A DNA stretch of 35,854 nt from Ignavibacteriales bacterium (lineage in GTDB: Bacteria > Bacteroidota > Ignavibacteria > UBA10030 > UBA8401): assembly GCA_026390635.1 (NCBI GenBank), contig JAPLFO010000139.1:124227-160080 (forward strand), in the 5' to 3' direction. Position 1 is the first letter of the stretch. Each line of letters begins with the position of its first letter. The notes below the pieces were generated by a model. The model saw nothing but the letters and a program-made list of their open reading frames with translations, had not been told where the DNA came from and did no database searches. A program made the position numbers and the translations under genes. Below are positions 21,230-28,002 of the stretch, piece by piece.

Positions 21230-21955
21230 CTATGGTGTCGCTTCATAAATTTCGCAGCTTTGATCGGGAAAGGCGATCAGTTCGCACGGATCCTCCGCGA
21301 TTGCAGATCCGGCATACGGGTAGATATAGCATGATGAAAAAGTCAGATCTGGCGGATAGATGATCCCTGTTTGATTGAAGAGCCGGACGCTCGCCTGAAC
21401 GCGGTATGCCTGCCGGGCGAAAAAAAATCGCACGGACGGTCCTGCGTAACAAAAATTTTGGTAGTATTTATGATCATCCCTCTTTCGCGCCGCATTGAAC
21501 GCCGGATTATACGGCAGCCAGGTGCTGTCGTCCATCTTCAGGTTCCAGGAGTAGTAGAGCGTGATTGAATCGCCGGATGCCAGCGTGATCATGCCCGTTG
21601 TAGGTTCGTACTGACGAGCACCCTTAATATTGCTCACGTCCAGTTTATCCGTCCTCGTTTTGACAATATTCCCGGTGAGTTCAAGAGGAATAAGCCATTC
21701 AATCCGGATGGTTCCCGCAATCGCTGCCCGCGCCTGTATCACCTCGTCCGAATTATTGCGAACGACAAGCAAAATGTTATATGCATTTTCCGTCCGGGAA
21801 TACGAATAGTGCCACGCCAGTCTTGCACTCAATAAGTTGCTGGGATCATTACGGTCGGGGAGTGTTTCATCACAGGAAGAGAAGAAAAAGGATGGAAGTG
21901 TCGCCAAGCATATTGAGAGAAGCAATCTTGACCGTGACCGGATGAAAGTGATCAT
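21230..21955 (-). CDS. Lipoprotein, paralogue of the gene at 26941-27645
   Basis: About 241 residues from Met at 21955 (in-frame starts at 21970 and 21991 are possible). Basic n-region, hydrophobic core and lipobox-like FSSC (Cys28). The mature protein starts DETLPDRNDPS; the paralogue has DEVLPARNDPS. Both also share a run of hydrophobic beta strands, an IEWLI motif, YYxWNLK-DDST, a QAYRV segment and FSSCYIYPY near the end. No known family recognised. Probably an outer-membrane or periplasmic lipoprotein of a surface complex encoded with the TonB-dependent receptor. The upstream spacer is occupied by a MITE-like element. Confidence 0.8.
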   Translation of the reverse strand: MITFIRSRSRLLLSICLATLPSFFFSSCDETLPDRNDPSNLLSARLAWHYSYSRTENAYNILLVVRNNSDEVIQARAAIAGTIRIEWLIPLELTGNIVKTRTDKLDVSNIKGARQYEPTTGMITLASGDSITLYYSWNLKMDDSTWLPYNPAFNAARKRDDHKYYQNFCYAGPSVRFFFARQAYRVQASVRLFNQTGIIYPPDLTFSSCYIYPYAGSAIAEDPCELIAFPDQSCEIYEATP

Positions 21956-22008
21956 TACTGGCTTTCCCATATTATCATGACGGTACGACAAAAGACTATT
22001 TCAATGCA

Positions 22009-22576
22009 ATGTTGTCCAAAATAATCCGGGAATATAGGAATACAGACCTCGTGAGCGCAGAATTGATGTTTTTTTTGCGAGCATTGATATAATATTTTGC
22101 TTTCTAAAAGCATGCAAAAGCGTCATTTCTTTTGTCTTGAAACAAAAGAAATGACGAAAGAAAAATTCAAGACTGACGAAAAATATGGGCAAAACGGCGG
22201 CTCACTTCGCTGCATGGTTCGACTTCGTCGCGGAGTTTACCCCGTGCAACGGGGCTCCCTTGCTCACCATGACGTGTTGCCTCACCCCGAGCAAGTCCGG
22301 CAAGAGCCGGACGCGCCGAGGGGACTGTGCGGCCGCTTCGTTCGCCTTGTTTTGCTTCCATATTTTTCGCAGGTCAATAGCAAATTATTGCAGAAAGCAG
22401 ACCGGAGCGCCGGAGGCGCGCCATATTTGTAGCAGAGCGTCTTCTCACAGATTCAATCAATTCTCGTTGCGAAATGGGGGTGACGTTTAACATAGGAGAA
22501 GCACCGTAGATAATTGCGACTATTTAAGACTTCAAGTCCGACGCATTTCATTTGATAGTTATTTTGGACAAGTCAG
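22009..22576. mobile_element. MITE-like element with terminal inverted repeats and flanking direct repeats
   Basis: Inverted repeats TTGTCCAAAATAA (22012-22024) and TTATTTTGGACAA (22559-22571) bracket about 560 bp without a credible gene. Just outside are 11-bp direct repeats ATTTCAATGCA (21998-22008 and 22577-22587), which look like a target-site duplication. Inside, in order: a 14-bp hairpin (22122-22155), a region with CCCCGT/ACGGGG, a CACCCCGAGC...CGAGGGG palindrome (22272-22320) and a GGAGCGCCGGAGGCGCG palindrome near 22405. The left ~190 bp recur at 27739-27946. No transposase gene, so it would move with help in trans. Confidence 0.65.
22122..22173 (+). repeat. 14-bp hairpin with loop complementary to downstream sequence
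   Basis: Perfect arms GTCATTTCTTTTGT / ACAAAAGAAATGAC (22122-22135, 22142-22155), loop CTTGAA. The loop is complementary to TTCAAG at 22166-22171, and GTCTTGAA (22134-22141) pairs fully with TTCAAGAC (22166-22173). Two exclusive folds or a pseudoknot are possible. The same sequence is conserved without change in the copy at 27739-27832. Confidence 0.75.
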
Positions 22577-22645
22577 ATTTCAATGCAGAAGCAAACAAAA
22601 ACCCAAAAACCTAAAAAACTTCTCAGCGATTCCGATACCTCCAGT

Positions 22646-24142
22646 CTAGAATTCGGCACTTAAACCGACACGAACCCTGCGGAGATCATAATAGGCGCTG
22701 GGATCTTCCAGTTCCCCGCCGATTCGTCCATTGGAATCGATCCATTTGACGTTCTTGGTATTTAAAAGATTCCGGATATCGGCATAAGCGGTGACGGCGG
22801 CCTTTTCTCCGAGCAGAAAGATTCGCGATAATTTCAGATTTACAAATACCACATCCTTCATCCGGTAGTTGTTCGGAACGAAGTCTTTTGTCGAATCCAG
22901 CGGCGTGAAGCCGTCGCGTGTCGGGAAGTAGGTGTACGGCTTGGCCGAATTATACCAGAGGACAAAATTTGCAACCACATCGTACGGCAGCTTCCCTTCG
23001 ATGTCGAGCTTTATGGAATGACGCTGATCCCAGCTGAGGGGGAATGTTTTTGCTTTGATCGGGAACCCCCACTGTGCCTGATTTACCGCTTGGTTTGCGG
23101 TTTCACTCATTCCCTCGGTCACTATATAAGTGTAGGAAATGCTCCCGGAAAGTTTTTCATCGCGTTCCCGGCTCAGGACAAACTCAATTCCCGACGCCTC
23201 GGCTTCCGCATTGTTCACATAAGTGGCAAATCCGTAGTCGCCGGCAAACTTGCTGTCGAACGCTACCAGTGTTTTGGAATCGATCTGATTCTTCGCATTC
23301 TTCTTGAAATAGGTGATCGATCCGACAAAGTTTTCGTTGATGGCGTGTTTATAGCCCAATTCCCACGCAATGGTCCGCTCCGGTTCCAGATCGGGATTTC
23401 CCGCCAGCACGCTCCTCGATCCGGATTGAATCTGCGCCGGCGTTATTCCCGAATAGAGATAGTCGAACAGGGGGAACTGGAAATAATATCCGAAGTTTAC
23501 ATAGAACATGCCATCAGGCCCGGTCGGAGCGGCGAATGCTATGCGCGGACTGAACTGCTGCTTGACAGTGACTTTTTTCAATCCGGTGTAATGTTCCACA
23601 AACTCCGACGGATTGCTGAGCGACGGAATGTACTCCACTGCGGGGCGTTCCGCTCGCGGATCCATAAAATCCCAGCGCACGCCGAGACTCAGAATGGAAC
23701 CGTCGCGGGAGAATTGAATCTTGTCCTGAAGAAATGCGCTTCCCATGCGGGGAAAATATTCATACAGGCTGCTGTAGTTGAGCAGCGGAGCATTCTCCAC
23801 CGTTTTGCCGAAGTAGGTGCGCTGCGGTTCAAACTTCACAAGGTCGGAAATGATGTCGTATTGCGAAATCTCGAATCCGGCTTTGAACAGATGAATCTTA
23901 TCCACCTGCGAGGTGTAGTCGCCTTTGACGGTGTACACTTCCTGCTGTATCTTTGCCCACCAGTTTTTGGTTCCGTCGACGATATAGCGGAGAAAAATGT
24001 CGTATCGGTACGGAGTGACGATCATATCCGATTTCATTCCTGCTCCGACCTGATTCCGCAGATAATATCTACTCAGACCGAGAGAGAAAGATGAGCTGTT
24101 CGAGAGCGTCTGCGTGAATGTCAGCGCGGTGCGGATGGACAT
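22646..24142 (-). CDS. TonB-dependent receptor, C-terminal beta-barrel part (downstream of amber codon)
   Basis: About 498 residues from the first Met after the stop, but the frame is open for 21 more codons back to TAG 24206-24208 and is the same frame as the upstream fragment. Long amphipathic strands with aromatic girdles (NFGYYFQFPLFDYLYSGI, FVGSITYFKKNAKNQIDSKT, LSGSISYTYIVTEGMSETAN), a TonB-box-style C-terminus RVRVGLSAEF ending in Phe as outer-membrane barrels do. Alone it lacks signal peptide and plug, so it can only work if the stop is read through or is a sequence error. The Met at 24142 has no evident ribosome site. Confidence 0.88.
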   Translation of the reverse strand: MSIRTALTFTQTLSNSSSFSLGLSRYYLRNQVGAGMKSDMIVTPYRYDIFLRYIVDGTKNWWAKIQQEVYTVKGDYTSQVDKIHLFKAGFEISQYDIISDLVKFEPQRTYFGKTVENAPLLNYSSLYEYFPRMGSAFLQDKIQFSRDGSILSLGVRWDFMDPRAERPAVEYIPSLSNPSEFVEHYTGLKKVTVKQQFSPRIAFAAPTGPDGMFYVNFGYYFQFPLFDYLYSGITPAQIQSGSRSVLAGNPDLEPERTIAWELGYKHAINENFVGSITYFKKNAKNQIDSKTLVAFDSKFAGDYGFATYVNNAEAEASGIEFVLSRERDEKLSGSISYTYIVTEGMSETANQAVNQAQWGFPIKAKTFPLSWDQRHSIKLDIEGKLPYDVVANFVLWYNSAKPYTYFPTRDGFTPLDSTKDFVPNNYRMKDVVFVNLKLSRIFLLGEKAAVTAYADIRNLLNTKNVKWIDSNGRIGGELEDPSAYYDLRRVRVGLSAEF

Positions 24143-24205
24143 TTGTGACCGCTTCGGAAGTCCGTCCAGATTATAGCGCCAGCTGAATTCATAGTCACGC
24201 CATTG

Positions 24206-24208
24206 CTA
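24206..24208 (-). other. In-frame amber stop splitting the TonB-dependent receptor
   Basis: Minus strand ...ATC TAC ACG TTG TAG CAA TGG CGT GAC TAT GAA..., giving IYTL*QWRDYE. Both sides are receptor-like and in the same frame, so a single C-to-T change of CAG would produce this. No indel is needed. Confidence 0.92.
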
Positions 24209-25183
24209 CAACGTGTAGATTGCCTGAAGACTCAGGCGTGTGGTCGACGTCGCATAATAGTCGGCTTTCGTGACGCCGGAAAGTTCTTTGCTGCTGGGTG
24301 AGGGGAAGAAGTTCTGCATATCCTGCCACCACCGGGTATTGCTCAGGCGCACAGTTGTAGCGGTCATATAAAAGAGCGAATTGCGGACAATCGGTCCGCT
24401 GGCGGTCAATTCCAGTTCGTTCAGCTGATCGGTCTGTTTCACCCATTTGGAAGGGATCCAGTTGTCTTTTTCAAACCTCGCATTGAATCGGTGCTCGTTC
24501 TCTCCGGTGCGCGTAATAACATTGACAATCGCGGACATCGCGTTCCCGTATTCAGCGTCAAAACCGCCGGTCATAATCGTTATACCGCCGATAGCGCTCT
24601 TCGGCAATTCGCTTCCCAGACCGCCGGAAATGTAATCCTGTACCGGCATTCCGTCGATAAGATAGAGCACTTCATTCGTTTTGCCGCCGCGCACATTTCC
24701 CTCCATCGTAACGCCGGGCTGCAGCGAAAGAATATCGAGAAAATTTGTGACCGGCATTCTTTCCAGTTTGATTTCTCCGATGGAGTAGGCGGTTGACGGC
24801 TGGTCCTTTTGAATAAGCGGTTTCTGCGCGGTGACTTCCACGCCCTGCATCTGGACGGTGGAAGCTTCCAGCAGGACTTCGATCCGCGTGCGAAGATCGG
24901 CAAGCACGGTCACTTTTTTCATTGTGATCGTTTTGTAGCCGACGTAGCTGAATTTTACATTGTACGTGCCGGCGGGAATATTGTTCAACTGATACAGGCC
25001 GTCGATATCGGTCACACAGCCCATCATTGTGCCGATAAGCTGAATGCTGACGGCGGGCAATGGTTCCTTTGTGCTCTTATCGAGAACTCTTCCGTCGATG
25101 ATACCGACAGTGCCGGCAATTCCGCAATGAACCAGAAAAAGCAGCAAAGTGAACTGCCGCCACAGTCGATGATAGTTCGGCAT
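24206..25183 (-). CDS. TonB-dependent receptor, N-terminal part (signal, regulatory domain, plug)
   Basis: About 325 residues to the amber stop. ATG 25183 follows AAGGAAAGG and gives a signal peptide (RLWRQFTLLLFLVHCGIAG); the upstream TTG at 25201 is less likely. Then a carboxypeptidase-regulatory-like domain (about 27-110: IDGRVLDKSTKEPLPAVSIQ, DGLYQLNNIPAGTYNVKFSY) and a plug domain (about 120-235: SLQPGVTMEGNVRGGKTNEV, YLIDGMPVQD, GFDAEYGNAMSAIVNVITRT). This is the layout of SusC/CirA-like receptors that take up large substrates using TonB energy. No SusD partner is nearby. With the downstream piece the whole protein would be about 845 residues, a normal length. Confidence 0.9.
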   Translation of the reverse strand: MPNYHRLWRQFTLLLFLVHCGIAGTVGIIDGRVLDKSTKEPLPAVSIQLIGTMMGCVTDIDGLYQLNNIPAGTYNVKFSYVGYKTITMKKVTVLADLRTRIEVLLEASTVQMQGVEVTAQKPLIQKDQPSTAYSIGEIKLERMPVTNFLDILSLQPGVTMEGNVRGGKTNEVLYLIDGMPVQDYISGGLGSELPKSAIGGITIMTGGFDAEYGNAMSAIVNVITRTGENEHRFNARFEKDNWIPSKWVKQTDQLNELELTASGPIVRNSLFYMTATTVRLSNTRWWQDMQNFFPSPSSKELSGVTKADYYATSTTRLSLQAIYTL

Positions 25184-25228
25184 GAAAAACCTTTCCTTCA
25201 AATCAAGGTAAATACTCAGCGTTAAAAG

Positions 25229-26940: not shown

Positions 26941-27645
26941 TTATGGAAGACTATAGTATAGTTCGCATGAGCGCTGCGGATCGCGGACTATTTCACACGA
27001 TCCGTATGGATCAACATATGGATATATGTAACAACTCGAAAATTTCATTTCCGGGGCGTGCATGTGTGCCGTCTGCTCAAATAGGCGCACATATCCGCTG
27101 ACCCTGTATGCCTGCGGGCAGAAAAACCACCGGCTGACCGAAGCAGGAACGCCGTTCACCCATACCGTGGCCTGGCAATTGTATTTTCTGGAGCCATTGA
27201 ATGCCGGCTGCATATAGATTGTTGTGCTGTCATCCGTTTTCAGGTTCCAGTAGTACCATAACGTCACGGAAGCGCCGGAGGGGATCGTCAAAATGCCTTT
27301 CGATCCATCGTAGAGCGGCGATCCGTTCAGGTTTGCATTAGTCAGCTTCGCGGTGCGTATCGTAGAGATTTCTCCGATCAGCATCCGGTCGATCAGCCAT
27401 TCGATCGTCAGTTCTCCGTCAATAGCGGCCTTAGCCTGAATTGCTTCGGAGTAGTTGTTCTTTAATATGAATTTGATGATGTATCCGTTGTTCGATCTGG
27501 AGAAATCGTACACCCAGGAAAGGCTGGTAGTGAAAAGCTGCGACGGATCATTGCGGGCCGGCAAAACTTCATCACATGAGAAAATCGACAATAGCGAAAG
27601 CATGAAGGCAGCCAGAAAGCAAACAACGCCGACATTTCTTTTCAT
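26941..27645 (-). CDS. Lipoprotein, paralogue of the gene at 21230-21955
   Basis: 234 residues from ATG 27645: MKRNVGVVCFLAAFMLSLLSIFSC gives a good lipoprotein signal with Cys24 lipidated. Mature sequence begins DEVLPARNDPSQLF and shares IEWLI, YYWNLKTDDST, QAYRV and KFSSCYIYPY with its paralogue 5 kb away. The open frame runs 63 codons further upstream (to 27834) only because it passes through the hairpin repeat; the added residues (HFFCLETKEMTKEKFKT) are repeat translation and are excluded. First gene of a minus-strand run with the Ig-like lipoprotein (21-base gap). Function unknown; no family recognised. Confidence 0.8.
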   Translation of the reverse strand: MKRNVGVVCFLAAFMLSLLSIFSCDEVLPARNDPSQLFTTSLSWVYDFSRSNNGYIIKFILKNNYSEAIQAKAAIDGELTIEWLIDRMLIGEISTIRTAKLTNANLNGSPLYDGSKGILTIPSGASVTLWYYWNLKTDDSTTIYMQPAFNGSRKYNCQATVWVNGVPASVSRWFFCPQAYRVSGYVRLFEQTAHMHAPEMKFSSCYIYPYVDPYGSCEIVRDPQRSCELYYSLP

Positions 27646-27738
27646 TGATCTGTTATCGGACGAAGAACTTGCCGGCAAATGGCTATCTCGGTTTATTGCA
27701 CAATCATCCATAGAAACCTTGTATTTGTAGGGTCGCAC

Positions 27739-27946
27739 TTGCCCATATTTTTCGTCAGTCTTGAATTTTTCTTTCGTCATTTCTTTTGTTTCAAGACAAA
27801 AGAAATGACACTTTTGCGTGCTTTTAGAGAGCACAATAATAGATCAATGCTCAAATAACAGGGCATACTCCTATGACTCTCAAAGAATTCGTCAATTCTA
27901 TGCGTATAGGCCTGTATTCCTTTGTTCCAAAATTATTTTGGACAGT
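27739..27946 (-). mobile_element. Second, truncated copy of the MITE-like element
   Basis: Minus-strand copy of the left ~190 bp of the element at 22009. From TCTAAAAGCA to ATGGGCAA (27739-27832) it has only 2 differences in about 90 bases, including the whole hairpin. Further out the match is looser but keeps GGAATACAG, AGAATTGA, GCATTGAT and the terminal TGTCCAAAATAA (27933-27944 on the plus strand as TTATTTTGGACA). The other terminus and the flanking direct repeat are missing. It covers the 5' leader of the lipoprotein gene at 27645. Confidence 0.65.
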
Positions 27947-28002
27947 TGTGATGTAGAGAATTCTACTAACTCTCACTGCCGCGGAAAAGTTCGCGATGTG
28001 CT

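Follow-up and report, generated by a model that had tools for sequence, protein, structure and literature searches.

An IS4-family MITE and the structured module within it in an Ignavibacteriales genome

The window analysed here, 35,854 nucleotides of contig JAPLFO010000139.1 from an Ignavibacteriales assembly (GCA_026390635.1), contains a short interval enclosed by inverted ends and direct repeats. The locus raises the question of what kind of element this is, how it reached its site and what its interior consists of. We hold with little reservation that positions 22007-22576 represent an IS4-family, IS4Sa-like MITE, presumably moved in trans, and that its interior is mostly an independent pseudoknotted passenger module captured at least twice.

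Ends, target duplication and copies of the element

The exact 13-bp inverted ends of the original prediction are present at 22012-22024 and 22559-22571, and an 11-bp direct repeat does occur at 21998-22008 and 22577-22587; neither the exact 13-mer nor the exact 11-mer has a further occurrence in the 36-kb window. Comparison with other copies set the element at 22007-22576 (570 bp), with imperfect inverted ends of 18 bp that reach 5 bases further out than the exact 13-bp core. In the window element the left terminal inverted repeat is CAATGTTGTCCAAAATAA (22007-22024, + strand; family form CACTGCTGTCCAAAATAA), and the right one, at 22559-22576 on the - strand, is CTGACTTGTCCAAAATAA, the complement of the window sequence at these positions. 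All own-genome copies, when aligned, gave the left-end consensus CACTG(C/T)TGTCCAAAATAA and the right-end consensus CAGACTTGTCCAAAATAA, read inward, which is also the family form of the right end.

The conserved bases beyond the 13 in the aligned copies showed that the duplication is the 9-mer ATTTCAATG, whose left (21998-22006) and right (22577-22585) copies are identical in 9/9 positions. The 11-bp repeat thus consists of the 9-bp duplication and CA, the dinucleotide with which the element begins and which the flank happens to repeat, and as a target duplication of 11 bp it was rejected. This was based on 21 elements from the own genome and related genomes: when their flanks were compared under assumed duplication lengths of 4 to 14, the mean identity peaked at 9 with 0.80, and every other length gave 0.22-0.33. 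Perfect 9/9 flanks were found in 9 of the 21 elements and at least 7/9 in 16 of them, a level reached by 0.2% of random pairs. Such duplications occur in MITEs of several genera; in the flank comparison a clear one was not found at the L113 IS or at L081, L096, L116 and L119.

The own-genome assembly (3.98 Mb, 202 contigs) gave 48 BLAST matches to the element, part of which cover just internal repeats. When the end motif was searched with one mismatch allowed, 29 matches were obtained compared to 3 for the reversed control, and inspection of the contexts left about 21 true element ends. Six complete copies, the window element and five others, have 7-9 of 9 flank bases identical; a seventh, L002, has both ends and no recognisable flank duplication. 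Many copies are situated at the ends of contigs, where a repeat that breaks the assembly is expected to lie. A plasmid search found no copies of the element.

With its 570 bp the element is below about 1 kb and lacks a transposase gene. It contains only two ORFs, of 101-111 aa, which overlie hairpins, and no plausible gene, in agreement with the original prediction; the latter overlooked the separate structured repeat that fills most of the interior. The left subterminal region (22025-22110, + strand) is common to other copies of the own genome.

The predicted partial copy beside a paralogous gene is real. It lies at 27739-27950 on the - strand and extends from the left end CACAACTGTCCAAAATAA through the first hairpin (P1) of the module, its right part being missing, so that the left end and about 190 bp are left. 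The adjacent gene product and that of the neighbour of the main copy (26941-27834 and 21230-21991, both on the - strand) are paralogous, 44% identical, without a Pfam match, and lie on either side of a TonB locus. The listed GTG start of 26941-27834 is inside the truncated copy, and the true start is therefore probably downstream. The TonB-dependent receptor (22646-25201, - strand) is split into two ORFs, with the barrel in 22646-24142 and the carboxypeptidase-like and plug domains in 24206-25201, as a result of a frameshift, a fission or an assembly error.

An IS4-family partner in sister genomes

The 18-bp end was searched in 150 relatives. End pairs 1367-1370 bp apart were found in three genomes (G002, G020 and G016), where they bound the IS elements L111, L112 and L113, which have the same asymmetric ends as the window element. 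The named records with the IS are uncultured Ignavibacteriae MAGs, sisters of the genome under study. Each IS contains one ORF of 391-428 aa; DUF4372 and DDE_Tnp_1 domains were recognised in the two of the three that were scanned, with matches to PF14294, PF01609 and NF033592, the last one ("IS4 family transposase") with 261-263 bits where the cut-off is 115. The transposase shows the spacing D66D103E and the Y(2)R(3)E(6)K (YREK) motif, YKDRWQIEIFFKTIK. Perfect 9-bp duplications, AGTATGGAT and AAGTGGTCT, flank the IS elements of G002 and G020 (L104/L111 and L105/L112), and none flanks L113. The ends common to these DUF4372 and DDE transposase-bearing elements and to the window element identify the latter as an IS4-family MITE, a kind already known.

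According to the published definition of the IS4 family (PMC2266710), the family is characterised by the Y(2)R(3)E(6)K motif, a D(60-110)D(100-150)E spacing and a duplication of about 10 bp, and the IS4Sa subgroup (Table 1 therein) by ends CA------T, duplications of 8-10 bp, a length of 1150-1750 bp and the presence of YREK. The IS ends CATTGCTGT and CAGACTTGT fit the CA------T pattern, and the start with CA and T at position 9, the duplication length, the YREK motif, the IS length and the single transposase ORF are all those of IS4Sa, the window element differing in its lack of a transposase. The placement as IS4Sa-like, which follows ends, duplication length and motif, appears a good fit. 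Thus a name can be given to the ends for which the original prediction knew no family. Its proposal of a non-autonomous transposon with target duplication was borne out by the many other copies with the same bounds and 9-bp duplications, and the transposase with the same ends that it suggested looking for was found in the sister genomes.

No transposase of this IS4 type was found in the window's own assembly, which speaks against the MITE reading; considering the 202 contigs and the many copies at contig ends, it may have been lost or left unassembled. Among 26 genomes checked, most of them with the end motif, these ends accompany only the transposases of 70-100% identity (G002, G016, G020). 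They are missing from the more distant IS4 transposases that the same genomes contain, and for this reason those of G011, G043 and G078 were rejected as partners. MITEs with the same ends and an unrelated interior were observed in G043 (loci L096, L114, L116), in whose assembly the cognate transposase was not found.

By analogy with the IS4 family, transposition would be of the cut-and-paste type. A full-length IS would supply the IS4-type DDE transposase in trans, and this enzyme would recognise the 18-bp ends, excise the element and insert it at a target whose strands are cut 9 bp apart, from which the 9-bp duplication would result.

A rival reading is a decayed full IS4 element, reduced by an internal deletion in place and not transposing as a MITE. 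Such deletions do happen, since a 520-bp copy in G104 has kept only the N-terminus of the transposase; it is a deletion derivative and likely an intermediate of MITE formation, although its flanks are without a clear duplication. The window element, however, contains no transposase remnant, and several own-genome copies, inserted at different sites and flanked by different 9-bp duplications, agree in interior and bounds, which already refutes in-place decay for the family and makes this explanation extremely improbable. Against the MITE reading stands that the own-genome MITEs and the IS have in common only the ends and a left subterminal region that aligns weakly; for other MITEs this region gave E=5e-8 (L111 against L124) and E=3e-5 (L112 against L060). 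Most of the MITE interior is an independent dispersed module that does not derive from the IS.

Fold and distribution of the structured module

The module, or core, of the window element occupies 22121-22375 (+ strand, as are all its parts). The 5' arm of the P1 hairpin (22121-22135) pairs with 22142-22156 and encloses the loop CTTGAA (22136-22141), which is complementary to the pseudoknot strand TTCAAG (22166-22171) beyond an A-rich linker; the 3' strand of the closing stem, CCATATTTTTCGCAGGTC (22358-22375), ends with AGGTC and forms the 3' boundary. The copies examined have one architecture in common. A P1 hairpin of 10-15 bp closes the 6-nt loop CTTGAx; it is followed by an A-rich linker, by the strand xTCAAG complementary to the loop, and by G(A/G)C-TG-stem ... 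stem-AG-G(T/C)C, whose apical region differs in length and sequence between copies. A further GC-rich palindromic repeat is located in the apical part at 22259-22322; a dozen or so partial copies of it are dispersed elsewhere in the genome, and it occurs in the apical loop of some cores only, being absent from those of L011 and L019. Another GC palindrome, GACCGGAGCGCCGGAGGCGCGCCATATTTGTAGC, follows at 22400-22433 (+ strand), and a similar motif was also seen in contig C41 of the own genome, there not within a MITE.

Covariation demonstrated that the module folds into an H-type pseudoknot with a long closing stem. The pseudoknot is paired in 29/29 copies, its variable pair being C-G, T-A or A-T, while P3 and the distal part of P1 vary in a compensatory manner, the paired cells in these 29 copies exceeding those in 300/300 shuffles. 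In alignment A2, 96.2% of the cells were paired, compared to 88.1% in shuffles and 43-56% when the strands were slid, and 8 pairs were changed on both sides, which occurred in 0/500 shuffles; relatedness inflates such scores, and the slid controls retain it. The MITEs of G002 and G016 have the loop AAGGGG and the strand CCCCTT, and contain the module in the orientation opposite to that in the window, which supports both the pairing and an independent capture. Since the two MITE lineages carry the module in opposite orientations, it would have been captured more than once; MITEs would take it up and then spread it as a passenger.

A non-Watson-Crick T.G/G.A step is conserved at the base of the closing stem. 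Simple inverted repetition does not explain it, which favours recognition of a folded strand, and this strand would more likely be RNA. A known RNA family was rejected as the identity of the core, as no Rfam family matches it, the curated threshold not being reached even in permissive scans. In the pistol ribozyme, the loop of a hairpin pairs with a strand past an A-rich linker, and the neighbouring stem has an internal loop. The topology of the core is similar and serves as a lead only, pistol being among the families that gave no match.

When 22115-22375 alone was searched in 294 genomes of the class, matches were obtained in 15 genomes belonging to several families. No convincing IS4 end pair was found on the copies examined in twelve genomes outside G053 and the own genome (G000), and the own-genome contig C41 likewise contains the module without these ends. 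With a covariance model of P1 and the linker (R1), matches at E<=1e-4 were obtained in 72/395 genomes of the phylum. Among 29 loci inspected, CTTGAx and xTCAAG could be read as complements, in the sense expected, at 25, and AGGTC or AGGCC forms the end of many. The module therefore occurs phylum-wide and mostly without IS4 ends.

This distribution could indicate that what is dispersed is in the first place the structured module, moving as an RNA or hairpin element by its own mechanism, and that for most copies the IS4-like ends are an accidental addition. However, for the window element and five other own-genome copies the repeat boundary is the 18-bp end next to the 9-bp duplication, and a recognisable module is missing from several MITEs that have the same ends (in G137 as well as in G043). 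The matching ends and duplications of the other copies already disfavour such an origin for the window copy, for which it seems to us very unlikely, and the IS4-family MITE with a captured module is preferred.

Core copies form clusters (L203 5398-6397, L205, L206 and L208), either as tandem arrays (G400) or as one copy per intergenic gap. In G111, G583 and G379 the clusters are located in surface-polysaccharide loci, that of G583 beside a NusG-like gene. Integron cassette arrays (attC) were considered for the clustered cores and rejected, since in G400 the copies are duplicated in tandem and enclose no gene, and the genes of the other clusters belong to ordinary surface-polysaccharide or SusD/glycoside hydrolase loci. 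Near a core copy of G175, CRISPR-like direct repeats of 36 bp with a spacing of about 72 bp were observed (L138 65-389), with a weak Rfam match only. The plasmid search found no copies of the L140 core.

Two gammaproteobacterial records, from Aeromonas caviae and Pseudoalteromonas (L160 591-800 and L161 595-800), show the same succession of hairpin, A-rich linker, loop complement and closing stem in a different sequence; the likeness of layout was judged by eye and is a lead only. The general look of the module is familiar from other bacterial genomes. In the open-access literature no relevant paper with the end or core sequences was found, nor one on structured repeats of this kind, although absence from Rfam and from the papers searched is no proof that the module was never noted elsewhere.

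Relation to known elements and significance

Bacterial MITEs with IS-type ends are known from other families. MITECca01 derives from the IS982-family element ISCca4 (PMC9769881) and QMITE2 is a MITE of Coxiella burnetii (PMC10969869). The window element resembles them in the IS-type ends, the target duplication (QMITE2), the lack of a gene, the many copies and the strong secondary structure, but it belongs to another IS family and its interior, instead of an IS remnant, consists of a separate structured module found throughout the phylum. Porphyromonas gingivalis, of the wider Bacteroidota group, also has MITEs with internal repeats, BrickBuilt among them; these have IS5-like ends and tandem repeats (PMC4596501), the element described here differing by its IS4 ends and pseudoknotted module.

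For a MITE family of the poorly studied Ignavibacteriae the parent could thus be named as IS4 and IS4Sa-like, and an autonomous partner was shown. The more important point is the widespread pseudoknotted module, which lies outside all Rfam families and was apparently taken up independently by two MITE lineages. The chances are about even that this core is an undescribed mobile structured element of the whole phylum, possibly of a wider group, and probably an RNA, having an H-type pseudoknot, an A-rich linker, a long closing stem, the conserved T.G/G.A step and fixed ends, which would multiply by a mechanism of its own, form arrays, several of them in surface-polysaccharide loci, and also hitch-hike in IS4 MITEs. 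The covariation model makes the RNA and mobility reading testable in cultured relatives. Should the module prove to be an RNA that moves by means of its own, it would represent a new kind of small bacterial mobile element.
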